A stretch of DNA of 64,000 bases, from positions 97,705-161,704 of the IMG/VR virus record IMGVR_UViG_3300020394_000003; one strand, 5' to 3'. Positions within the stretch are counted from its first letter, which is position 1; every line of letters starts with the position of its first letter. The notes under the pieces are model-generated. The model was not told the DNA's origin. It did not search any database and saw nothing but the letters and a program-made list of their open reading frames with translations. The position numbers were made by a program, and so were the translations under genes. Shown here in pieces: positions 42,041 to 61,900 of the stretch. The DNA comes from a virus.

Positions 42041-43318
42041 ATGAAGGTTACTGATAACGAACATTTTAGGGGCAACAATAAGCTCACAGCAATGACCTCA
42101 TATTACTATAGATTATTGTATAGTGCTGTACATACGCCAAACACCAAATACAAAAAGATCAAAAAAAATGTTAAGAACTTTGAATATGGCGAGCATATAC
42201 TTTATGGCAGGGTAAAACCGTTCTCTCATATTCCTGTTATCATTAAAGAAGATAGACTAGCAGCACCCAAGAGGCAAGATCCGACTAAGGTTGTTCATGT
42301 GGCTAATTTTGTTGCTGATGCTTACGATGATTTCGTAAACTCATTTGAAACGGCACAATACAGGAACCAGATAAGCATGGAAGGAGGATTCCTCACGTCG
42401 CCAGTTGCTAGAAAGGGATATCAATCTCCAACGCAGCACTATCGAGCTTACAGCACAGCAGCATTTGAGGTGTTTCAAAAATACCTCACTGAAAATAGAC
42501 TTCACGGCAAGATAAAAGATTTCGATTCCTTCTATATTCAATTTCATAATTACTTTAAACTGTTCTGCAAGGCACTGCCCTTCACTCTGGAGGCTTTTCA
42601 CCGTAGCAATTTGAGTAATGTCAACATGACAGGTCTAGCAATCGATCTTGCTGAATTTGATGCTGCAGAAGACAAAATAAAAGTGGAAAGAGTGTTCTCA
42701 AACGTTAACTATCAATTTTACGAAAACGCCGCACTGCAGCATGGCTTCAGCATCGATAAAAACTGCCCATGGCGTATCGTCGCGGACCTAGGATCGCCAG
42801 CAATGTTACGTTACATGGCAAAATATAACATTAGGAATGCAACACGCCTTATGAATTCTTATTATGAACCGGCATACCTAGTAAGCTACAATGCTTTTAA
42901 GACAATGCTAGTAAACTACTATAACAACTATGCACGCAGCCGGCCAGAAATTGTCAAGCCTCGTAGAAATGGTCTGGGCGATTATGTAAGCAAGATTGAA
43001 ACCATCGAAACTGTGAGTATCTTTGATATGATTAGGGCTGGTGGAGAAAAGTATTTCCTAGAAAAATATGTAATATTTCGTAGCATGGAGGAGAGTGGAA
43101 TTTTCACAAAACAAAAGATAGTTCAGATTGTTGATCGCGCCATGGAGATAGCCAACATCCGAGGTATGGAGTCGGCACTAAAGTACATAAATGAAGCAGC
43201 TAGTAAAACCCCCCAACGCTCTGGCTCCATTGCATATCGTGCCAACAAGAACCTTAAGAAGGCTATAGAAAAAGAAGAGCAGTCCGACCTTGCTGCCCGG
43301 GGCAAAACAGGGTATTGA
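42041..43318 (+). CDS. hypothetical late protein at the end of the tail module
   Basis: A 425-residue, Tyr/Asn/Lys-rich, mostly helical protein with no recognised domain. It begins MKVTDNEHFRGNN, has aromatic-rich segments (TSYYYRLLYSAV, VNYYNNYARSRPE) and a basic C-terminus. It follows the large baseplate protein with a 6-base gap and is the last gene before a probable terminator and the promoter of the replication region, so it belongs to the tail transcript. A virion or tail-assembly role is likely from context. Confidence 0.6.
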   Translation: MKVTDNEHFRGNNKLTAMTSYYYRLLYSAVHTPNTKYKKIKKNVKNFEYGEHILYGRVKPFSHIPVIIKEDRLAAPKRQDPTKVVHVANFVADAYDDFVNSFETAQYRNQISMEGGFLTSPVARKGYQSPTQHYRAYSTAAFEVFQKYLTENRLHGKIKDFDSFYIQFHNYFKLFCKALPFTLEAFHRSNLSNVNMTGLAIDLAEFDAAEDKIKVERVFSNVNYQFYENAALQHGFSIDKNCPWRIVADLGSPAMLRYMAKYNIRNATRLMNSYYEPAYLVSYNAFKTMLVNYYNNYARSRPEIVKPRRNGLGDYVSKIETIETVSIFDMIRAGGEKYFLEKYVIFRSMEESGIFTKQKIVQIVDRAMEIANIRGMESALKYINEAASKTPQRSGSIAYRANKNLKKAIEKEEQSDLAARGKTGY

Positions 43319-43335
43319 TGTCAAAAACACGATCC

Positions 43336-43380
43336 CTCAAATTTTACCGCCGGCAAATTTTTGAGATTTTTGGTTTTTTC
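43336..43380 (+). terminator. possible terminator at end of tail module
   Basis: CTCAAATTT can pair with AAATTTTTGAG (two bulged Ts) over a loop that contains CCGCCGG, followed by ATTTTTGGTTTTTTC. The stem is AT-rich and weaker than the other terminators, but the place, between the last tail gene and a sigma-70-like promoter, is right. Confidence 0.4.
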
Positions 43381-43389
43381 AAAAAAAAC

Positions 43390-43418
43390 TTGCAATCTTT
43401 GCTCGCATCAGTTAAGAT
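43390..43418 (+). promoter_or_regulatory. sigma-70-like promoter
   Basis: TTGCAA (43390-43395) and TAAGAT (43413-43418) with a 17-base spacer, 18 bases before the GTG start of the polymerase gene. It is one of several host-type promoters in the replication region. Confidence 0.55.
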
Positions 43419-43435
43419 AGTAGCAGAGGTGAGAA

Positions 43436-44635
43436 GTGTTATTCCAGACCCTAGATGATAAAAATGAATGTGTGGGTGTATATTCAGAGGGCTCTTTGAT
43501 CTACGGTGATATCCCAGATAATCTGACCAAAACTTGGTCATATGCACCGTATTTAGAGGCTGTTGATGTAGAATATGCAAGCCTGTATGGTCCAAGTATG
43601 AATATTGCCGAAATGTGCCCAGAACACCTACAGCCAGAATGGGATGCAATCGCTGCTAGACTGAAGGCTTATTACAAGTCTTTTAACACGGCCGGCGTTT
43701 GTTTGCAAGAAAATTGTTTTTTTGATCTTGTCCCTGATAGATATCTGATTGACTTGTGTGAAGTAAGAAATAAGATAACACAGCATGTGCTGGACAACCA
43801 TGAGAAACCAGCAAATTATCAGCATTTACTGCAGATTACAAAGTTGATTCATTCGATTTCGCAGCAGAAGCTCAAAGTTGTGCCATCGAACATAAAATCA
43901 AAAAGGGCGAGTTTGCAGGCAAGGAATTTTCTGAAAAAAATTTCAAAAAGCCAGCCGTATTGTAAATACGTTGTTAATGGTACAAAGACTGGCCGATTGA
44001 CAACAATGCCAAATAGTTTTCCAATTTTAACGATGAACAAGGATTATAGATCTGTCTTGGAGCCCCAAAATGATTGGTTTGTAGAATTTGATTTCAACGC
44101 GGCTGAATTAAGAGTCCTGTTGTCGCTAGTGGGCAGAGATCAACCTAATCAGGACATCCACAATTGGAACATTGACAATGTTTTTCGTGGAATCGGAACC
44201 AGAGAAGAGGCTAAAAAACGCGCCTTCGCATGGCTGTACAATCCAGAATCAGAAGACTCCTTGATGAATCGGTTCTACGACCGCGATGCAGTCCTAGGTC
44301 AATATTGGAACGGCACCCATGTCGAGACACTATACAACAGAGCAATCCCAGCAGATCGCTTCCATGCGCTAAATTATATTGTACAAAGTACCTGTGCAGA
44401 TATGGTGCTAGAGCAGGCATATAAGATGAGTAAAGTCTTAGATGGGAAGCGTTCTAGAATTGCATTCATAATTCATGACAGTGTAGTGGTTGATCTGGCG
44501 AATGATGAACGTCAGGACATAATCAAATTATTTAATGTTTTTTCTAATACAAGACTTGGCCAATTTATGGTAAACTGCAATGCAGGAAAAAACTTTGGAA
44601 ACTTGAGAGAGTTGAGGTTAAAATGGATAAGTTAA
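43436..44635 (+). CDS. compact family A DNA polymerase
   Basis: A 399-residue protein with a PolA palm and fingers. T185-G-R-L188 matches the TGRLSS segment of Pol I. Motif A is FDFNAAELRV with D219 and E224. The O-helix keeps R256, K260, F264 and Y268 at exact four-residue spacing, and motif C is I-H347-D348 (the usual Glu replaced by Ser349). The catalytic aspartates are therefore present. There is no room for a 3'-5' exonuclease, and the thumb region looks short, so it is far smaller than T7-type or Pol I enzymes. GTG start after GAGGTGAGA. It coexists with a DnaE polymerase downstream; repair, gap filling or a specialised replication step is possible. Confidence 0.75.
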   Translation: MLFQTLDDKNECVGVYSEGSLIYGDIPDNLTKTWSYAPYLEAVDVEYASLYGPSMNIAEMCPEHLQPEWDAIAARLKAYYKSFNTAGVCLQENCFFDLVPDRYLIDLCEVRNKITQHVLDNHEKPANYQHLLQITKLIHSISQQKLKVVPSNIKSKRASLQARNFLKKISKSQPYCKYVVNGTKTGRLTTMPNSFPILTMNKDYRSVLEPQNDWFVEFDFNAAELRVLLSLVGRDQPNQDIHNWNIDNVFRGIGTREEAKKRAFAWLYNPESEDSLMNRFYDRDAVLGQYWNGTHVETLYNRAIPADRFHALNYIVQSTCADMVLEQAYKMSKVLDGKRSRIAFIIHDSVVVDLANDERQDIIKLFNVFSNTRLGQFMVNCNAGKNFGNLRELRLKWIS

Positions 44636-45468
44636 TAGGACTAGGATCTGCTGGCGTCAACATTGTTGATAAATTTGCACAGTATCCTCAATATAAGTGT
44701 TATCGATTTGATACTGATCTTGACGGACTTAAAAAAAACGGATATTACCTGATCGATGCGCAATCTGGTACAGAAGAATATGAGAAAAACTGTCCATCGG
44801 TAAAAAACTTCTTGAAATCCGCACGACCAGAGGTTACAATGGTGATGTCTGGGTGTGGAGAAATTTCTGGTATGTCGCTGTCGTTGCTAGAGCAGATACA
44901 GGATCGTAAAATTAACATATTGTATATAAAGGGGGGCGAGCGCCGACTCAGCGCAAGAGCCCGACTGACACAAAAGGCTACTTTTGGAGTATTACAAGAA
45001 TATGCCCGATCTGGACTTTTCAACTCTTTTAGTGTGGTTGACAATCGCGCCTTAGAACGCATCTTGGGCAATACACCAGTCATCGGGTATTACGATGCAC
45101 TAAACACGCTGTTGGTCAATACTGTGCACATGTTGAATGTCTTCGACAACACAAAGCCAGTTGTGTCAGATGTATCAAAGCTTTCTGAGATTAATCGGAT
45201 TAGTACCTACGGTATTTCAAAATTTGATGAAAAAAATAAAGAAAACTTGTTTTTTCCTCTTGACAGTGTTCGCCAAAAAAGGTATTATTTTGCTATCAAC
45301 AAAAAACAGCTGGAGGTCGACGGTGCTATAAACAATAAGATTGATGAATACTTAAACCAACCAAGCCATAAAGAAATTGATGTTTCTTATGGAATTTACC
45401 CTACAAATTATGAAGAAAATTTCGTATACTACAGAGTATACACCAACAAAGTTCAGGAACTAGAATGA
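44623..45468 (+). CDS. divergent FtsZ/tubulin-like protein (tentative)
   Basis: A 281-residue protein whose segments run in the order of FtsZ/tubulin GTPase domains. A nucleotide loop GLGSAGVN lies at residues 6-13, followed by FDTDLDG at 29-35 (FtsZ has N-T-D-A). A strand leads to SGCGEISGMS at 76-85 where FtsZ has the GGGTGTG signature. Next come strand NILYIKGG, a helix with RARLTQKATFGVLQEY, F-S-V-V-D-N-R-A-L (FtsZ: I-P-N-D-R-L) at 137-144, and a long helix at 156-173. The signature is degenerate (few glycines), so GTP binding may be altered. It overlaps the polymerase gene by 13 bases and touches the next gene by ATGA. The fold call is by eye and needs a profile search; a different Rossmann-type fold remains possible. 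Confidence 0.45.
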   Translation: MDKLIGLGSAGVNIVDKFAQYPQYKCYRFDTDLDGLKKNGYYLIDAQSGTEEYEKNCPSVKNFLKSARPEVTMVMSGCGEISGMSLSLLEQIQDRKINILYIKGGERRLSARARLTQKATFGVLQEYARSGLFNSFSVVDNRALERILGNTPVIGYYDALNTLLVNTVHMLNVFDNTKPVVSDVSKLSEINRISTYGISKFDEKNKENLFFPLDSVRQKRYYFAINKKQLEVDGAINNKIDEYLNQPSHKEIDVSYGIYPTNYEENFVYYRVYTNKVQELE

Positions 45469-45749
45469 AATCATACACAGGAACATTCACCAAAGCAGAC
45501 GGCTCGGCGCGCTCAATGCGGTTTGTACGGCTAGCAGATCTGCCCGATTCTTTTCTTGCGGAAAAGATCAAGGGGAATGATACGTCCGAAGCCCGACAAG
45601 CGGCCCGCCGAAAAATGCTGTCAGAAGGAAAAGAGACAGTTTGGGATTTGGATGCTAACAACTTTCGCATTTTCAACTGGAACACCACTGTGGATGACGT
45701 GGCAGAAATTGATATTGAAGATGCAAACTTTTTTAAAAATAATGCTTGA
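45465..45749 (+). CDS. small conserved-type protein, SH3-like barrel candidate
   Basis: A 94-residue protein with the pattern YTGTFTKADGSARSMRFVRL, L-P-D-S-F-L and ETVWDLDANNFRIFNWNT. It resembles small phage proteins annotated as SH3-like beta-barrel proteins of unknown function. The middle, residues 35-55, is a basic helix. ATG overlaps the stop of the FtsZ-like gene (ATGA), so the two are co-translated. A role in replication or host take-over is possible but not shown. Confidence 0.5.
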   Translation: MKSYTGTFTKADGSARSMRFVRLADLPDSFLAEKIKGNDTSEARQAARRKMLSEGKETVWDLDANNFRIFNWNTTVDDVAEIDIEDANFFKNNA

Positions 45750-45774
45750 CTTTTTTGTAAAGCAGTGTTATATT
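45746..45774 (+). promoter_or_regulatory. sigma-70-like promoter for SSB gene
   Basis: TTGACT (45746-45751) and TATATT (45769-45774) with a 17-base spacer, 64 bases before the SSB ATG. The -35 element overlaps the end of the preceding coding region. Confidence 0.65.
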
Positions 45775-45837
45775 TAATGACAGAGGTTCGGAAGATTTGC
45801 CGAGCCTACTATAGCCTAGTGCAAAAGGAGAAAAACA

Positions 45838-46581
45838 ATGGCAATTGATATGAAAGCAATGCGCGCAAAGCTTAACGCGCTTAAGAATGGCGGAGGCAAG
45901 AATAATTTTTGGCGTCCGCAGGATGGGGATCAAGATGTTCGCATCGTAGCCCCAGAAGACGGTGATCCGTTCAAGGATTACTACTTCCACTATAACGTGG
46001 GCAACGCTAGTGGATTCTTATGTCCCAAGAAGAATTATGGCGATGACTGCCCAGTGTGTAATTTTGTCCGAGCCCTTTACGATGAGGGTACGGAAGAATC
46101 AGTAAAGATGGCGAAGTCTTTGACTGCTCGTCAGCGATTCTTTAGCCCGGTGCTCGTCCGTGGCGAAGAAAAGCAGGGAATTCGCATTTGGGGTTATGGA
46201 AAGACCGCATATGAGACCTTGCTGACCCTAGTCCTCAATCCTGATTATGGCGATATCACGGATGTTGAAGAGGGCACCGATCTCACGATCAACTATGGAA
46301 AGCCTGCAGGAGCGTCGTTCCCGCAGACTAAGATCCAACCGCGCCGCAAAACCAGCAGTCTAGTGGACTCTAAGGAGCATGCAGCTGAGTTGCTATCGAA
46401 CATTCCGGCCATCGACGGTCTCTTCGAAAAGAAGACTACGGAAGAAGTAGAGGCACTCCTAGACACCTTCCTCTCCGATGATCAGGATGCTGAGGAACGT
46501 TCTAGTGAAAGTCATCGCTACAATGGAACCGAAAAAGAAACTAGCAGTGTTGATGAAGCGTTCGACCAACTGCTGAGTTAG
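45838..46581 (+). CDS. 32: single-stranded DNA-binding protein (gp32-like)
   Basis: Coats ssDNA in replication, recombination and repair. The 247-residue protein has the T4 gp32 plan: a basic N-terminal arm (residues 1-25) for cooperative binding, an OB-like core with a zinc site H51, C62, C71, C74 (T4: H64, C77, C87, C90, similar spacing) and a strongly acidic C-terminus from about 205 that recruits partners. Shorter than T4 gp32 (301). It has its own sigma-70-like promoter, an AAGGAG ribosome site and a terminator-like hairpin after it, so it can be expressed alone and at a high level. Confidence 0.88.
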   Translation: MAIDMKAMRAKLNALKNGGGKNNFWRPQDGDQDVRIVAPEDGDPFKDYYFHYNVGNASGFLCPKKNYGDDCPVCNFVRALYDEGTEESVKMAKSLTARQRFFSPVLVRGEEKQGIRIWGYGKTAYETLLTLVLNPDYGDITDVEEGTDLTINYGKPAGASFPQTKIQPRRKTSSLVDSKEHAAELLSNIPAIDGLFEKKTTEEVEALLDTFLSDDQDAEERSSESHRYNGTEKETSSVDEAFDQLLS

Positions 46582-46598
46582 CGCGAGTGGCCCACAGG

Positions 46599-46633
46599 GA
46601 GGCACAGGGTTATCAGGTGCCTCACATTTTTAT
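46599..46633 (+). terminator. hairpin after SSB gene, probable terminator
   Basis: GAGGCAC pairs perfectly with GTGCCTC over an 11-base loop and is followed by ACATTTTTATAT. It lies 18 bases after the SSB stop. The T-run is interrupted, so partial readthrough to uvsX is likely. Confidence 0.6.
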
Positions 46634-46667
46634 ATAGTGTTTTATTTGCCAGATCTAGGAGTTTTTA

Positions 46668-47786
46668 ATGGCAAGAAGGAAAAAGACAACCGGTGCAGGA
46701 AAAATGTCTATTGCCGACATGCGCGCCATTATTAACAAGAAGGCTGGCATGGAAGTCGCCCACGACTTATCTGGCGACAACCCTACCGCCGTAAAAGATT
46801 GGATTCCCACTGGTTCAAGGTGGCTAGATTCGATCATCTGCAAGGGTCAACGTGCCGGAGTGCCAGTAGGTAAGGTTACAGAGATTGCTGGCTTAGAAGC
46901 TTCAGGAAAGTCCTTCCTAGCAGCACAAGTCGCAGCAAACGCTCAGAAGATGGGTATTGACGTTATTTACTTCGATTCAGAGTCTGCAATCGACCCCGCA
47001 TTCCTTGAACGAGCCGGCTGCGATGTGGATACACTGTTATATGTACAAGCTACATCCGTTGAGTTTGTTCTGGAGACTATTGAGGATCTTCTTTCAAACA
47101 ACGAAAACCGAATGCTCTTCATTTGGGATTCACTAGCCCTTACCCCATCTATCTCTGATGTTGAGGGTGATTTCAATCCACAATCATCAATGGCAGTCAA
47201 GGCCCGAATTCTTGCAAAAGGAATGAGCAAGCTTACGGTTCCGATTGCTAACTCGCAGAGCACGTTTCTGGTCCTCAATCAGTTAAAATCTAATATTACA
47301 CGATCACCGTCCGAAGCTCTTGTGACGCCCTACATGACACCCGGCGGCAAGGCGATGATTTATGCGTACTCCTTGAGAATCTGGCTCACAGGCCGTAAAG
47401 CCAAGGCTAGTTATATCACAGACGAAAAGGGTTTCCGAATTGGCTCAGAGGTAAAGGTAAAGTTGGAGAAGTCGCGTTTTGGAACACAGGGGCGACAATG
47501 CAACTTTAAGATTTTATGGGGCACAGATTCGGTAGGCGTTCAAGACAAAGAATCGTGGTTTGAGGCTATCAAGGGATCAGATCACATCAAGCAGTCTGGA
47601 GCATGGTTTACACTGGTGTATGCAGATGGAACAGAAGAAAGATTTCAAGCTTCAAAGTGGATTCAAAAACTTTCGAATGAAAAGTTTCACTCACGCGTCG
47701 AAGAGATTATGGATATCGAGGTCGTACAAAAATTTGACAGCAGAGAAGGATCTGCAGAAGATTTTTACGGTGAAAAGGACGAATAA
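46668..47786 (+). CDS. uvsX: UvsX/RecA-like recombinase
   Basis: Strand-exchange ATPase for recombination-dependent replication and repair. A 372-residue RecA core has Walker A GLEASGKS at residues 75-82, a DSESAID catalytic segment at about 105-111, Walker B LFIWDSLA near 148-155, and L1/L2-type loops around 165-230 (SSMAVKARILAKG, QLKSN...PGG). T4 UvsX is 391 residues. It would act with the gp32-like SSB upstream and the gp46-type complex at the left end. No UvsY-like mediator is recognised in the window. Confidence 0.93.
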   Translation: MARRKKTTGAGKMSIADMRAIINKKAGMEVAHDLSGDNPTAVKDWIPTGSRWLDSIICKGQRAGVPVGKVTEIAGLEASGKSFLAAQVAANAQKMGIDVIYFDSESAIDPAFLERAGCDVDTLLYVQATSVEFVLETIEDLLSNNENRMLFIWDSLALTPSISDVEGDFNPQSSMAVKARILAKGMSKLTVPIANSQSTFLVLNQLKSNITRSPSEALVTPYMTPGGKAMIYAYSLRIWLTGRKAKASYITDEKGFRIGSEVKVKLEKSRFGTQGRQCNFKILWGTDSVGVQDKESWFEAIKGSDHIKQSGAWFTLVYADGTEERFQASKWIQKLSNEKFHSRVEEIMDIEVVQKFDSREGSAEDFYGEKDE

Positions 47787-49277: not shown

Positions 49278-49453
49278 AAATCAAAAAAGGCGACTTGGTA
49301 TTCTTCAAGCCAGAATACAATGATGACAACTGGGCAGACAGGTTAGCAGTAGTTATGTCTTTTGACGAGCCTTTGCTCTTGACATTACTATCAAAAGGTG
49401 ATATAGTTAAAGCTCCAATTTACACAGTAGAGAAAGTTAAGGAGAAGTCATGA
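49274..49453 (+). CDS. small hypothetical protein between deaminase and UvdE
   Basis: A 59-residue frame, MKIKKGDLVFFKPEYNDDNW at its start, with ATGA overlaps at both ends. Tight coupling and a strand-rich sequence of G-D-L-V-F-F-K and a second half G-D-I-V-K-A-P suggest a small barrel of the SH3 or KOW kind. Its density of sense codons and exact fit between neighbours make it a likely real gene. No function can be assigned. Confidence 0.6.
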   Translation: MKIKKGDLVFFKPEYNDDNWADRLAVVMSFDEPLLLTLLSKGDIVKAPIYTVEKVKEKS

Positions 49454-50388
49454 AAAATTTTGGATATGCATGCATCAACATGGGATTTTCCCAGCGACCT
49501 AAGTCCAAGAGGATTACTACTAACCGCACTATGATCAAGCGTACATTTCATGAGCGCGGGATCGAATATGCTTCGGAACTAGCGCTGCAGAATTTGCGTG
49601 ATTTGCGCACAATTCTAGAGTGGAATCTAGAAAACGATATCTATTTCTATCGACTATCATCCGATATCATTCCGTGGGCTAGTGAGTACAAACTCACCGA
49701 TATGCCGAACTATGGTGCAATTCATGCCGCTGCATTATCTGCTGGTAATTTTGCACGTCAACATGACATGCGCCTCACATCGCACCCCGGTCCATTCAAC
49801 AAGCTGGCCTCGCCCAAAGAGCGTGTGTTTCAACTCACTAAGACTGACTTGTCGGTGCACGGCGATCTGTTTGACCTTATTGGTCTGCCTCGCACGCCGT
49901 ATGCTAAGCTAAATATTCACGTCGGCGCCGCCTACGGTGACAAACCGTTTGCGCTTGACAACTTCTGTCGCAATTTTGAAAGACTGCCGGAGAATGTACG
50001 GTCACGCTTGACTGTTGAAAACGATGACAAGGAGTCGCTGTACTCAACGCTTGAGTTGTACGAAGGCGTGTACAAGCGAATCGGTATCCCTATTGTGTTT
50101 GACTATCATCATCATATGCTTCACCCCGGCGGTCAGACCGAACAGGAAGCACTAGAGCTAGCTTTGTCTACATGGGGCGACATCAAGCCTGTGGTACACT
50201 ATGCTGAGTCTCGCTCACTGGAATATGACAACCCCAAGATCAAGCCCCAAGCACACTCTGACCGCGTTGTGCGGCCGTTTGATGACTACGGTCACGACCT
50301 TGACGTTATGATCGAAGCAAAGCACAAAGAACTCGCCCTCCTTCAGTATCGTGATATGTTGAGCGCGCAAGCAAGGGTGGTGGCATGA
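49450..50388 (+). CDS. uvdE: UV damage endonuclease UvdE
   Basis: Nicks DNA 5' of UV photoproducts and starts alternative excision repair. The 312-residue protein is a TIM-barrel UvdE: GYACINMGFSQ at the start, then IYFYRLSSDIIPW (about 58-70), RLTSHPGPFNKL, K-L-N-I-H-V-G-A, R-L-T-V-E-N-D-D, and FDYHHHMLHP with metal-binding His and Asp residues. These barrel-strand metal ligands are the family hallmark. T4 uses DenV (pyrimidine dimer glycosylase), so this is a different repair solution, fitting a sunlit habitat. ATGA overlap with the preceding small gene; start well supported by GGAG. Confidence 0.9.
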   Translation: MKNFGYACINMGFSQRPKSKRITTNRTMIKRTFHERGIEYASELALQNLRDLRTILEWNLENDIYFYRLSSDIIPWASEYKLTDMPNYGAIHAAALSAGNFARQHDMRLTSHPGPFNKLASPKERVFQLTKTDLSVHGDLFDLIGLPRTPYAKLNIHVGAAYGDKPFALDNFCRNFERLPENVRSRLTVENDDKESLYSTLELYEGVYKRIGIPIVFDYHHHMLHPGGQTEQEALELALSTWGDIKPVVHYAESRSLEYDNPKIKPQAHSDRVVRPFDDYGHDLDVMIEAKHKELALLQYRDMLSAQARVVA

Positions 50389-55452: not shown

Positions 55453-56016
55453 ATGGGTACAGAATTACCGCTTCCAAAAGCTAGAAATCTTTATTTACCG
55501 AAGCAAGTCGATCAGGCATCAATGAATGCACTTACCAAGAGTATTCTTGAAATCAACGATAACGATGAATATATAAAGAAACTATATGCAGTTCATGATT
55601 TGGAATACAACCCAAAGCCGATTAAGATCTATATTGACTCTTATGGAGGAGCCGTTTATCAATGTTTTGGTTTATTGGGTGTCATGGAAAAAAGTGAAAC
55701 TCCAATCCACACCATTGTTACTGGCGCAGCCATGTCCTGCGGCTTCATGATCCTAATCAGTGGCCATAAACGCCTAGGCTATTCGCTTTCAACACCACTG
55801 TACCATCAGGTTTCTACTGGATTCTGGGGCAAAGTGCAGGATATGGAAGACCACCTAGCAGAGACAAAGCGCCTTCAAAAGAAGATTGAAGATATAACCA
55901 TAGAAAAAACACAGATCTCAAAGAAGAAGCTAACAGAAATCTTAAAAAGAAAAGTTGACTGGTATATGTCAGCAGAAGAAGCTTTGCAGCTTGGGGTAAT
56001 TGATGAAATCGTATGA
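55453..56016 (+). CDS. clpP: ClpP-like serine protease
   Basis: A 187-residue ClpP-family protein. Ser95 lies in T-G-A-A-M-S-C-G-F and His118 in PLYHQVS, the distance and motif of the nucleophile and base. The Asp region near 165-172 (KRKVDWYMSAEEALQLG) is a little shorter than in E. coli ClpP, so the acid is not certain. The helix after the active site, E-T-K-R-L-Q-K-K-I-E-D-I, forms the handle for ring assembly. Alternatives are a membrane-associated or inactive ClpP variant. It shares an operon with the GroES-like gene, a protein-quality pair that may tune the host proteome or virion proteins. Confidence 0.82.
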   Translation: MGTELPLPKARNLYLPKQVDQASMNALTKSILEINDNDEYIKKLYAVHDLEYNPKPIKIYIDSYGGAVYQCFGLLGVMEKSETPIHTIVTGAAMSCGFMILISGHKRLGYSLSTPLYHQVSTGFWGKVQDMEDHLAETKRLQKKIEDITIEKTQISKKKLTEILKRKVDWYMSAEEALQLGVIDEIV

Positions 56017-57555: not shown

Positions 57556-58433
57556 GGCAAAGAAAGAGTCATCTCGCCGGCATTGTACCTGTCGCCGGTC
57601 GTACCGATAAATTTGAACTACCATGGCCAGACTGTATGATGCCCTTGTCGCAAGACTATGTGGCAATTGAGCGAAGTATTCTTGAATGCGCTTATGCTGG
57701 TTGTAAAACAATCTGGGTTATCTGTAATGACGATGTTTCACCAATCATCAAGCATCGTCTGGGAGAGTACGTCTATGATCCAGTTTGGTATGATCGCAAA
57801 GATACGTTTGCTAGAGAAAGTCGCAGAATAATACCTATTTTTTATGTACCGATTCACTCTAAAGATACAAACAAGCGAGACTGTTTGTCTTGGAGTCTAG
57901 TTTACGGGGCACTTACTGCCTTCAAGATAGGCTCATCGCTTAGTCAATGGGTGGCGCCAAGTAGATATTATGTCGCCTTCCCTTGCGGAATCTATGAGCC
58001 TTCCGTCGTTCGTCCTCATCGAGCAGCTATAACCAAAGGAGAATGTTTTGCAGTCTCTTACGAAGGCAGTAACGTATTGAATAATAAATACATGGGATTT
58101 ACCTTTGGTAAAGATGAGTGGAAAAGCTTTAGAAGAGTTTTAAGATCGGGTACTGGCCTGTGGTCGTCAGAAAATTTACGACAAGGAAAGTATCCTAGTG
58201 AAGTTCTGCCTATAGAAGAAAGATATTCGGCGAGACATTTTACACTTGACAAAGTTTTAGAATCTGTTAAAATAGTGAATGAGGTCGAACTTTCAGCATA
58301 TCATCAAATAGATACATGGGATGATTACCTAAAATATTTGAGATCCGACACCCAACTAGAAAAACCAAAAAACTTCTTGACAAATGGCAAGAAATTAAAT
58401 AAAATATGTAAACCAATCGAGGAAGATGAATGA
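57552..58433 (+). CDS. nucleotidyltransferase-like protein
   Basis: A 293-residue protein whose N-terminus follows the GT-A nucleotidyltransferase scheme: H-L-A-G-I-V-P-V-A-G-R-T-D-K-F (like the G-x-G-T-R loop) at about 7-21. P-D-C-M-M-P-L comes next where K-P-L-L-P is usual, then A-I-E-R-S-I-L-E-C-A-Y-A-G-C-K-T-I-W-V-I-C-N-D-D at 38-62. The later segment YYVAFPCGIYEP could be the metal-binding strand. The C-terminal third is charged and helical. An NTP-sugar or nucleotide transferase for DNA or glycan modification is possible. No substrate can be read, and the glycine loop is degenerate. The 3' end carries the dnaE promoter. Confidence 0.5.
   Translation: MRQRKSHLAGIVPVAGRTDKFELPWPDCMMPLSQDYVAIERSILECAYAGCKTIWVICNDDVSPIIKHRLGEYVYDPVWYDRKDTFARESRRIIPIFYVPIHSKDTNKRDCLSWSLVYGALTAFKIGSSLSQWVAPSRYYVAFPCGIYEPSVVRPHRAAITKGECFAVSYEGSNVLNNKYMGFTFGKDEWKSFRRVLRSGTGLWSSENLRQGKYPSEVLPIEERYSARHFTLDKVLESVKIVNEVELSAYHQIDTWDDYLKYLRSDTQLEKPKNFLTNGKKLNKICKPIEEDE
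58377..58405 (+). promoter_or_regulatory. sigma-70-like promoter for DNA polymerase III alpha
   Basis: TTGACA (58377-58382, exact consensus) and TAAAAT (58400-58405), 17-base spacer, inside the end of the nucleotidyltransferase-like gene and 24 bases before the dnaE ATG. A second, weaker pair lies at 58246-58273 with a 16-base spacer. Confidence 0.6.
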
Positions 58434-61400
58434 AGCCTACAAAAAACAACACTATCCCTTTCGTAAACCTTCATGCTCATAGCGTTGCAGGATCAATTTT
58501 TGACGCTATTGGTTTCCCGCAAGATCATATGGATTTTGCGTATGAGAATGGGTCTGAGGCCTTGGCGCTAACCGACCATGGCAATATGAACGGACTGGCA
58601 TATCAGGTTCTTCATGCTCGTCGCATGGAATCGGAAGGTAAAAGCTTCAAGCCAATTTATGGAGTAGAGGCTTATTTTATTCCATCTTTGAATGAATGGC
58701 GCACCGAATACGCCAAGGTCATGGAAGACAAAAAGAAAGCACGCGAAGCAATCAAAGGCAAGCAATCTGGTGCAACGGTAGAGGACTCATCAGAATCTAA
58801 GCGTGCTATTAATAATGTGCTTAAGCGCCGTAGTCATTTGATTCTGCTAGCACAAAATCAGACTGGACTTAATAACATCTTCAAGCTAGTCTCAGAAAGC
58901 TACAAAGAGGAGAATTTTTACCGATATCCACGAATTGATTACGCTTTGTTGGAAAAATATAATGAAGGCATCATTGCTGCATCTGCATGTTTGGGCGGGG
59001 TGTATGCTGGTGATTATTGGCGCGCTGGCGAATATGACGCAGACGGTAATCGTACAGGGACAGATATGGACGCGGCACTAGATGCAATGCGCGAAACAAC
59101 AATGCGCATGCAGTCGATCTTTGGGGACCGGTGGTATGGAGAATTGCAATGGAACAACATCAAGGAACAGCATGAGCTGAATAACCTGATTATCCAGATT
59201 GCAAATGAATTCGACATGGAACTTATCTCTACCGCTGATAGCCATTATCCAAACCCGAATGCTTGGAAAGACAGGGAGCTTTACAATCGACTAGGCTGGC
59301 TTGGAAAAGGCCGACCAGCGTGGGCGGAAGAAGACTCAGATTTGCCGGTTGATGTAGACGAGATCGGTTACGAGCTTTACCCTAAGAACGGTGATCAAAT
59401 GTGGGAGTCGTATAAAAAGTATTCTAAATCTTGCAAATTTGAGTACGAAGATGAACTAGTACTTCGCTCGATTGAAAATACCCACAAGATTGCAACCCAG
59501 AGAATCGAGCAGTTCTATCCTGATAACACGGTTCGCCTGCCAGATTTTGTTGTGCCTGTTGGAATGACGGCTACTCAGGCGCTGATCAAGTTGTCGATGG
59601 ATGGCTTGAACGAGATGGGTTATGCTGACAATGAAGAGTATGTTTCTAGGCTCAAGCACGAACTTCAGGTTATTGACGAGCGAGGCTTCTCTAAATATTT
59701 CTTGACAATGAAAGCTATTTCTGATAGAGCAACTGATTCCATGCTCTGTGGCCCGGGCCGCGGCTCTGCAGCCGGCTCGCTGGTTGCATACGTGCTGCGA
59801 ATCACGCAAGTAGATCCCATCAAATATGGCCTATTGTTCTCCCGCTTCCTGCGCTCAGACGCTACGGACTATCCTGATATCGACTATGATGTTGCCGACC
59901 CAATGGTACTGAAGGAACAGCTTATCGACGAGTGGGGTGAAGATACCGTTGCTCCGATCTCTAACTGGAATACGCTCCAGCTACGTTCACTCATCAAAGA
60001 TATTTCTAAGTTCTACGGTGTTGAATTCACTGAGGTTAACAAGGTAACATCTGTTATGATGTCGGAAGCAACACCGCTAGCAAAACAAAAGCATGGCATC
60101 AAGGCGGGAATCTATGCCCCAACTTGGCAAGAAGTGGTTGAGTTTAGCCCGACGCTTCGCACCTTCCTTGAAACTTATCCAGATATCAAGACCCACGTCG
60201 AAACTCTAGTCGGTCAGGTCCGAAGTTGCAGCCGTCATGCCGGCGGAGTCGTGGTGGCAGAAAATCTAGATCATCACATGCCACTGATCAACTCAGGTGG
60301 AGTTCGACAGACGCCATGGTCAGAAGGACAAAATGTCCGTCATCTAGAACCCATGGGCTTTATTAAGTTCGATTTGCTTGGCTTAGCCTCTCTCCGTATG
60401 ATCGATGGCGCAATCCGACAGATCTTAATTCGGCACCACGGTATCGAGCAGCCAACATTCGCTGATGTTAAAAGATACTACGACGAAAACCTGCACCCAG
60501 ATGTGATCAACTTGGACGACCAGAACGTTTACGAAGGTATCTTTCACAAGGGTAAGTGGGCAGGAGTATTCCAGTTTACGGAGGACGGAGCACAGAAATT
60601 CTGTGTCCGCGCCAAGCCGTGTAGTATTATTGATATTTCTGCTATTACCTCTATCTTCCGACCCGGACCCCTCTCGGCCGATGTTGACGACCAATATGTT
60701 GAAGCAAAGGAGCGACCGCAGTATATTAAGTATGTTCACCCGCTAGTTCAAGAGGTTACTGAAGAAACCTACGGCTTCTTGATCTTCCAAGAGCAGATTG
60801 CACTTTTAGCCCATAAACTTGGCAAGGATCTTAGTCTAGATGAAGGCAACAAGCTTCGCAAGCTGTTGACCAAGAAGGGTACTGGCAAGGGCGCCCGCGA
60901 GAAAAACAAGATTCACAAGAAGTTCATCGATGGTTGTGTGGAAAAGGGACTGCAGAAATCCACGGGCCAGCGCCTTTGGGAAACTTTTGAATACTTCTCT
61001 GGCTATGGTTTTAACAAGTCGCATGCCGTTTCCTACAGTATTCTGTCTTTCCAGTGTGCGTGGCTTTTGAATTACTATCCTGCTGAGTGGATGGCTGCTT
61101 TCCTCGACAAAGAGCCCGAGTCTCGCAAAGAGAAGGCTATTGGTATTGCCAAGAACTTTGGATTCGAAATTGAGCCTCTGAATGTAAATACATCTGGTAG
61201 AGTATGGGGCATTGATGAATCTGGCAAGACCCTAGTTCAGCCATTCAGTTCTATTAAGGGCCTAGGTGACGCAGCAATTGATCAGATTCTGAATAGTCGA
61301 CCTTTCGCTGTGGTTGAAGATTTCTTGTTTAATGACAAGATTTCGTATTCTAAATTGAACAAGAAAGCGTTAGACGTACTAATCAGATCCGAAGCACTAG

Positions 61401-61900
61401 ATTGCTTGATGGATGAACGGTTCACTGGGGCTAAACATTTTTGGTCTGCTGTTGCTGTCGACCGCCCTAAGAATAAGAAAAAGTTTCTAGAAAATTTAGA
61501 ACTTTATCGACCCGAGGGTGACTTTACTGAAGAGGAAAAGATTCAATCGATTGTTGATTTGACTGGCTCCTTCCCGATTAACCGCGTCGTCGACGAAGAC
61601 GTTATGGCCCGCCTAGAAGAAAAGATGATTCCACCTATTGGGGAATACGATCCAGATTTGCAGGTTACTTGGTTTATCCCACGCAAGATTACGCCGAAGA
61701 AAACAAAGAATGGTAAGCTATATTGGATTCTGGAGGTGACAGACACCACCAATTCTTTGACCAAAATTCGTTGTTGGGGTGTAAAGCCTGAAAAAGATAG
61801 GGTTTTGATGAATCGTCCTTATCTTGCGAAACTAGATTACAATGCACAATGGGGATTTAGCACACGTTCGATCATGCATAATTTTAGATTACTAGGATAG
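58430..61900 (+). CDS. dnaE: DNA polymerase III alpha subunit (DnaE-type)
   Basis: Family C replicative polymerase, 1156 residues as in E. coli DnaE (1160). The PHP domain begins with H15-A-H17-S and A-L-T-D-H-G-N-M-N-G, so the metal-binding His and Asp are in place. The palm shows G-P-G-R-G-S-A-A-G-S near 441 and the catalytic pair D483-I-D485 in Y-P-D-I-D-Y-D. The third aspartate is D648 in I-K-F-D-L-L-G-L. The fingers (HAGGVVV, KKGTGKGAR, GFNKSHAVSYS) are complete, and a C-terminal OB-like region follows. No family B polymerase is seen, so this is the likely replicase of an otherwise T4-like phage. Confidence 0.95.
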   Translation: MKPTKNNTIPFVNLHAHSVAGSIFDAIGFPQDHMDFAYENGSEALALTDHGNMNGLAYQVLHARRMESEGKSFKPIYGVEAYFIPSLNEWRTEYAKVMEDKKKAREAIKGKQSGATVEDSSESKRAINNVLKRRSHLILLAQNQTGLNNIFKLVSESYKEENFYRYPRIDYALLEKYNEGIIAASACLGGVYAGDYWRAGEYDADGNRTGTDMDAALDAMRETTMRMQSIFGDRWYGELQWNNIKEQHELNNLIIQIANEFDMELISTADSHYPNPNAWKDRELYNRLGWLGKGRPAWAEEDSDLPVDVDEIGYELYPKNGDQMWESYKKYSKSCKFEYEDELVLRSIENTHKIATQRIEQFYPDNTVRLPDFVVPVGMTATQALIKLSMDGLNEMGYADNEEYVSRLKHELQVIDERGFSKYFLTMKAISDRATDSMLCGPGRGSAAGSLVAYVLRITQVDPIKYGLLFSRFLRSDATDYPDIDYDVADPMVLKEQLIDEWGEDTVAPISNWNTLQLRSLIKDISKFYGVEFTEVNKVTSVMMSEATPLAKQKHGIKAGIYAPTWQEVVEFSPTLRTFLETYPDIKTHVETLVGQVRSCSRHAGGVVVAENLDHHMPLINSGGVRQTPWSEGQNVRHLEPMGFIKFDLLGLASLRMIDGAIRQILIRHHGIEQPTFADVKRYYDENLHPDVINLDDQNVYEGIFHKGKWAGVFQFTEDGAQKFCVRAKPCSIIDISAITSIFRPGPLSADVDDQYVEAKERPQYIKYVHPLVQEVTEETYGFLIFQEQIALLAHKLGKDLSLDEGNKLRKLLTKKGTGKGAREKNKIHKKFIDGCVEKGLQKSTGQRLWETFEYFSGYGFNKSHAVSYSILSFQCAWLLNYYPAEWMAAFLDKEPESRKEKAIGIAKNFGFEIEPLNVNTSGRVWGIDESGKTLVQPFSSIKGLGDAAIDQILNSRPFAVVEDFLFNDKISYSKLNKKALDVLIRSEALDCLMDERFTGAKHFWSAVAVDRPKNKKKFLENLELYRPEGDFTEEEKIQSIVDLTGSFPINRVVDEDVMARLEEKMIPPIGEYDPDLQVTWFIPRKITPKKTKNGKLYWILEVTDTTNSLTKIRCWGVKPEKDRVLMNRPYLAKLDYNAQWGFSTRSIMHNFRLLG

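Follow-up and report, generated by a model that had tools for sequence, protein, structure and literature searches.

The right-hand 64 kb of a 161,704-base virus contig (IMG/VR record IMGVR_UViG_3300020394_000003; this whole stretch of 64,000 nucleotides is the window referred to below) encodes a protein of 281 amino acids, here called FZL (44623..45468, + strand, ATG start). Its predicted structure places it almost certainly in the FtsZ/tubulin fold superfamily, as a very divergent member of about 280 residues, and its gene sits among those for a family A DNA polymerase (PolA), a single-stranded DNA-binding protein and a recombinase. We propose that FZL serves the phage replication/recombination machinery as a scaffold of tubulin fold, binding GTP and hydrolysing it weakly or not at all, a reading that we put at a probability of roughly 45%.

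The first-pass annotation had placed the gene exactly here, overlapping the PolA gene; the overlap with the PolA ORF (43436-44635) measures 13 nt, and the motifs quoted were all recovered in the order given: GLGSAGVN (residues 6-13), FDTDLDG (29-35), SGCGEISGMS (76-85), YIKGG (101-105) and VVDNRAL (138-144). An initial scan of IMG/VR with FZL returned 32 relatives with 32-100% identity over nearly the whole length, and a profile scan of the same collection gave at least 591 confirmed matching stretches. Among the 97 distinct full-length members that make up the family alignment (median 279 aa), G6, L7, G8, G11, Y24, L86, Q125, R129, S130 and H169 are invariant and D30, N141, N161 and N172 are each ~99% conserved, conservation being highest at T1, the end of H5 and the H7/T7 end. 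FZL is under purifying selection, with dN/dS of ~0.03-0.12 (seven pairs computed; dS is saturated in more distant pairs). These low values, the 97 full-length homologues and the 24 invariant columns in the alignment of the first 22 members show that the ORF is not a product of chance.

The family is large and has no earlier name. Searched as a single sequence, FZL has no convincing match in Pfam, PHROGs, PDB sequences or cultured phages, and no PHROG match at E values up to 1. Other members likewise match no Pfam or PHROG family at a useful threshold, and the family profile has no match among PDB sequences. The PhuZ family, phrog_4733, is absent among the PHROG matches of 22 FZL members, in a search where phiKZ PhuZ itself matches at 4.6e-118. 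No relatives were found in the cultured phages of INPHARED by tblastn with three member queries, nor any close relatives by scanning IMG/VR with E. coli FtsZ and phiKZ PhuZ as queries. Pfam Tubulin (PF00091) has zero matches in the window's own genome; its HMM matches two FZL relatives over T1 at 12.4-12.9 bits (E ~0.008), below the cut-off of 33. The contigs that carry FZL are presumably marine for the most part, judging by the general character of the collection and related literature rather than contig by contig. One occurrence, L112:5514-11236 in the chromosome of a WOR-3 MAG (CP070664.1), was considered as evidence of a prophage and rejected; its phage block keeps the gene order of the other loci but is bounded by runs of N, and the segment is probably a mis-scaffolded phage contig.

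An AlphaFold2 model of FZL built from a 22-sequence alignment has a mean pLDDT of 90.9 and a pTM of 0.90. It comprises the two domains of the tubulin fold, with the H7 helix at residues 156-175 (a long helix at 156-173 had been read from the sequence) and a C-terminal domain of four strands and two helices. In a Foldseek search of the PDB, FtsZ, TubZ or tubulin accounted for all of the best 50 matches listed (best E 1.9e-13, probability 1.00, TMq 0.64-0.72, identity 11-16%), and both domains are matched, since the alignments cover 307-369 columns. The fold that the first-pass annotation had called by eye is thus borne out; neither a model lacking the two-domain tubulin fold nor a strong match to another family emerged from these searches. 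Seven matches in BFVD have E values of 1e-3 or lower, six of them at TMq 0.52-0.77, and three of these six bear the name FtsZ, cell division protein or tubulin. The best is an annotated phage FtsZ, A0A6J5RW92 (TMq 0.77, E 2.4e-14).

Profile comparison agrees with the predicted fold. Against 33 FtsZ sequences the FZL family gave an hhalign score of 37.4 (probability 45%) and against ten PhuZ proteins a score of 37.8 (47.5%), whereas four unrelated families from the same loci scored 15.0-18.7. None of 400 shuffles (100 column and 100 ten-column block shuffles per target) reached the true score, the maxima being 32.3 for FtsZ and 29.9 for PhuZ, and the alignment with the FtsZ profile is collinear over 262 columns. 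Alone, this sequence evidence for homology is suggestive; combined with the fold it is strong.

Assignments of pocket and interface residues in FZL rest on sequence alignment. The T1 loop, GLGSAGVN (44638..44661, + strand), is aligned by hhalign with FtsZ GVGGxGxN and is intact, its G6, L7, G8 and G11 being present in 100% of the 97 members. A degenerate T4 phosphate loop, SGCGEISGM (residues 76-84; 44848..44874, + strand), aligns to GGGTGTG, and its family pattern of G-[SAC]-G-x-[IV]-S-[GA] departs from the signature GGGTG(S/T)G. The T4 glycines had been described as mostly lost, which does not hold for G77, G79 and G83, retained by 95%, 90% and 77% of the family, but does hold for the other glycines of GGGTGTG, which are gone or replaced, as by I/V at position 81. 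N141 (45043..45045, + strand; Asn in 96 of 97 members) aligns with the Asn of the FtsZ T6 PN(D) segment, and we take it to occupy the position of the guanine-contact Asn of T6. In helix H7, N161 (45103..45105, + strand; also Asn in 96 of 97) is aligned by hhalign with the position of tubulin N228 and S. aureus FtsZ D187, the guanine contact of that helix. The T3 region has a conserved ExYE instead. At the end of H7, the T7-equivalent segment HMLNVFDNT (residues 169-177; 45127..45153, + strand) was placed by an alignment that is uncertain because H7 is shorter in FZL than in FtsZ; the catalytic acids (NxDxxD/E) are not conserved there, with no column at 169-177 acidic in more than 22% of members and column 178 reaching 54%, while H169 and N172 are invariant or nearly so and N/H176 is conserved.

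From the retained T1 loop and the two guanine-contact asparagines we infer that FZL binds guanine nucleotide, and the absent T7 acids together with the degenerate T4 loop suggest that it hydrolyses GTP poorly or not at all. That GTP is the ligand is made less certain by a weak resemblance of the Rossmann-like N-terminal half to TrkA_N (best E 8.7e-4). Lack of the T7 acids would be compatible with long FZL filaments, since the hydrolysis-dead PhuZ mutant D190A still polymerises with GTP (PMC4244570).

The genomic setting of FZL is highly constrained. Upstream on the same + strand lie a gene for a conserved 425-aa protein (42041..43318; found in 79 of the 83 loci with upstream sequence) and the compact PolA core (43436..44635; 399 aa; Pfam DNA_pol_A 6.9e-12). 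Downstream, also on the + strand, are an optional small WYL_2/phrog_1086-like protein (45465..45749; phrog_1086 7.7e-5; 20 of 79 loci), a gp32-like single-stranded DNA-binding protein (45838..46581; Pfam gp32 2.3e-13) and a UvsX/RecA-like recombinase (46668..47786; phrog_97 5.7e-57). The 425-aa protein has no Pfam or PHROG match; its AlphaFold2 model (pLDDT 89.6) has three structural matches in BFVD, all to unnamed viral proteins. Where flanking sequence suffices, the PolA core lies upstream of FZL in 82 of 83 loci, and gp32 and UvsX each lie downstream in 79 of 79; polymerase and FZL genes overlap or abut in 53 of 88 loci. Because these loci had been picked for FZL, a reverse scan was made starting at the polymerase. 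It yielded 80 loci, with FZL in all 77 that have room downstream; two of the other three are shorter and also carry FZL, and the third contig ends at the polymerase. In one relative, L021, a MazG-like ORF (identified by eye; L021:779-1135) lies between polymerase and FZL and runs in frame into FZL, and an insertion of similar length occupies this position in the related loci L017-L020.

All FZL-linked polymerases fall in one clade of the polymerase tree (88/88, support 0.94), and its sister set consists of seven phages lacking FZL. These sisters keep polA, gp32, UvsX, the 5'-3' exonuclease and the helicase, so FZL is dispensable for such modules in general; the 425-aa gene was not detected in those examined. 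Their slot between polymerase and gp32 holds a protein of ~180 aa, and several add a DnaQ-like exonuclease (RNase_T 4.2e-13) or an HD-domain protein (an example of the slot is L257:6440-7294, with its relatives). Since the sisters fill the slot with an exonuclease or other proteins, it seems to belong to replication-associated functions. The linkage of FZL represents co-inheritance and probably co-expression, and speaks to the genes rather than to physical contact. It points to a role within the replication machinery rather than to DNA positioning of the PhuZ or TubZ kind.

The phage itself has structural genes with distant T4-like signatures (terminase, portal phrog_213, major head phrog_138, sheath phrog_23 and tube) and replication genes for gp32, UvsX, a DnaB-like helicase, a 5'-3' exonuclease, RNR and a DnaE-type DNA polymerase III alpha subunit with a PHP domain (58430-61900 of the window). 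Since the phage has this DnaE-type polymerase besides the PolA core, bulk replication may not be the task of the PolA-FZL-gp32-UvsX block, which could work in repair, recombination or priming instead. A UvdE-type UV endonuclease (49450-50388; Pfam 1.4e-57) and, near the replication genes, a ClpP-type protease (55453-56016; Pfam CLP_protease 3.5e-27) are also encoded in the window.

With bacterial FtsZ (PDB 7ohk, 6rvn, 2r6r) FZL shares two domains, a long H7, the T1 GxGxxGxN, the T6 Asn and the H7 guanine-contact position; it differs in its identity of only ~11-16%, its length of 281 aa, the degenerate T4, the ExYE in place of T3, the absent T7 acids and the link of its gene to phage replication genes. 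PhuZ (phiKZ gp039, phrog_4733) is likewise a phage-encoded tubulin fold and has a similar N-terminal pattern, GxAGxxIxxxF...Y....YxID, yet PHROGs and tblastn do not detect FZL at the sequence level. In the nucleus-forming jumbo phages the PhuZ gene has other neighbours. The phage tubulins known so far place DNA in jumbo phages, and do so independently of replication (PMC4244570). TubZ of Bacillus plasmids and phages (PDB 2xka, 4ei7) shares the fold and acts with TubR and a centromere. A TubZRC partition system was rejected for FZL, whose neighbours are the polymerase, the WYL_2-like protein, gp32 and UvsX: no TubR was identified among them and no TubC-like iteron array in 43300-46800. The FtsZ cell division GTPase A0A6J5RW92, from an uncultured Caudovirales phage, is 452 aa long and 15% identical to FZL.

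A second FtsZ-like family of ~360 aa (L160:5001-6092; also L156 and L161-L239) is widespread in related IMG/VR phages, with 107 confirmed relatives, a Pfam Tubulin match at 3.1e-6 and an hhalign probability of 98% against FtsZ. Unlike FZL it has an intact T4 (GGGGTGS) and an acidic T7, and its similarity to the FZL profile is weak (score 25). In the one locus read, its gene lies near a baseplate-like gene. FZL is also present in 5 of 15 searched contigs with this family, and in G042; the window's own genome was searched for the second family and it was not found.

We envisage that FZL became a fixed part of the replication/recombination module in a large clade of uncultured T4-like phages. It would still bind guanine nucleotide, as its motifs suggest, and would hydrolyse the bound nucleotide inefficiently. 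Perhaps by forming a short polymer that stays static, it might then serve as a scaffold that depends on GTP and holds or organises PolA, gp32 and UvsX at sites of phage replication or recombination, and would not be a dynamic spindle. There is a precedent for a phage protein of cytoskeletal fold in DNA replication: AlpC of the CGP3 prophage is needed for efficient phage DNA replication (PMC4446434), although it differs from FZL in having an actin fold and a DNA adaptor, AlpA, and in belonging to a prophage.

It is unlikely, though the likeliest of the alternatives to such a scaffold, that FZL forms a PhuZ/TubZ-type cytomotive filament, polymerising dynamically with GTP to position or segregate capsids or the genome of the phage; its gene would then lie beside replication genes only because of when it is expressed. 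In favour of a filament, FtsZ/tubulin proteins of phages are among the nearest phage relatives in fold, the family profile resembles PhuZ as much as FtsZ, and the conserved residues cluster at the two faces brought together in FtsZ/tubulin filaments, those of the nucleotide end and of the H7/T7 end. However, the T7 acids are not conserved in FZL, whereas PhuZ has a catalytic Asp, D190, and its dynamics need hydrolysis (PMC4244570). No TubR-like gene was identified at the locus and no TubC-like iterons nearby, and some FZL phages carry the second, canonical FtsZ-like protein elsewhere.

FZL could instead, though we consider it improbable, use its tubulin scaffold without polymerising, as an enzyme or nucleotide sensor that tunes the activity of the polymerase or the supply of dNTP/GTP. 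E51, Y53, E54, Q125, Y127, R129, S130 and H169 are invariant residues without FtsZ counterparts and could form a new active site, but would fit a protein-protein interface equally well; the MazG-like ORF in L021 would suit a nucleotide-related function, yet we know of no enzymes with the tubulin fold besides the filament GTPases. Distinctly improbable, in our judgement, is a decoy or poison of host FtsZ that co-assembles with or caps the division ring and so blocks division during infection. Genes for host takeover tend to be early, variable and non-essential, whereas FZL is strongly conserved and fixed between the polymerase and single-stranded DNA-binding protein genes in 77 of 77 loci, and the low identity to FtsZ in structural alignment is poor for co-assembly. 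In favour of a decoy are the FtsZ-like fold and the existence of phage proteins that target FtsZ (T7 Gp0.4); FtsZ has been described in complex with a phage protein (PMC13423816). Finally, a generic, non-tubulin Rossmann-fold protein drawn towards FtsZ by AlphaFold2 and Foldseek is very improbable, and we rejected it on the PDB and BFVD results: single FZL members do have weak TrkA_N and NAD-binding Pfam matches, but the best 50 PDB matches listed are all of the superfamily and include the second domain, generic viral Rossmann proteins in BFVD reach only TMq <= 0.4, and the profile alignment is collinear across FZL.

The literature searched, with most subscription journals and preprints outside its scope, yielded PhuZ, TubZ and jumbo-phage reviews and no protein of tubulin fold linked with the polymerase operon of a phage. 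We regard FZL as a branch of a known superfamily that is new and highly divergent, and its role is possibly new as well. It is a very small, degenerate tubulin fold joined to polymerase, single-stranded DNA-binding protein and recombinase genes in hundreds of phage contigs, and it escapes PHROGs, Pfam thresholds and cultured-phage databases. As a reduced natural variant it may serve for separating nucleotide binding from filament catalysis, and it connects cytoskeletal folds with the replication factories of phages in a way that can be tested. Our preferred reading, at a little under even odds, is that an abundant lineage of uncultured phages has taken a protein of tubulin/FtsZ fold into its PolA/gp32/UvsX machine as a dedicated subunit that is not cytomotive, a role that the papers searched do not report for the superfamily. 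Such a role would, if true, widen the known uses of the tubulin fold, and the evidence suggests that a cytoskeleton-type protein is now a standing part of a viral DNA-replication machine.
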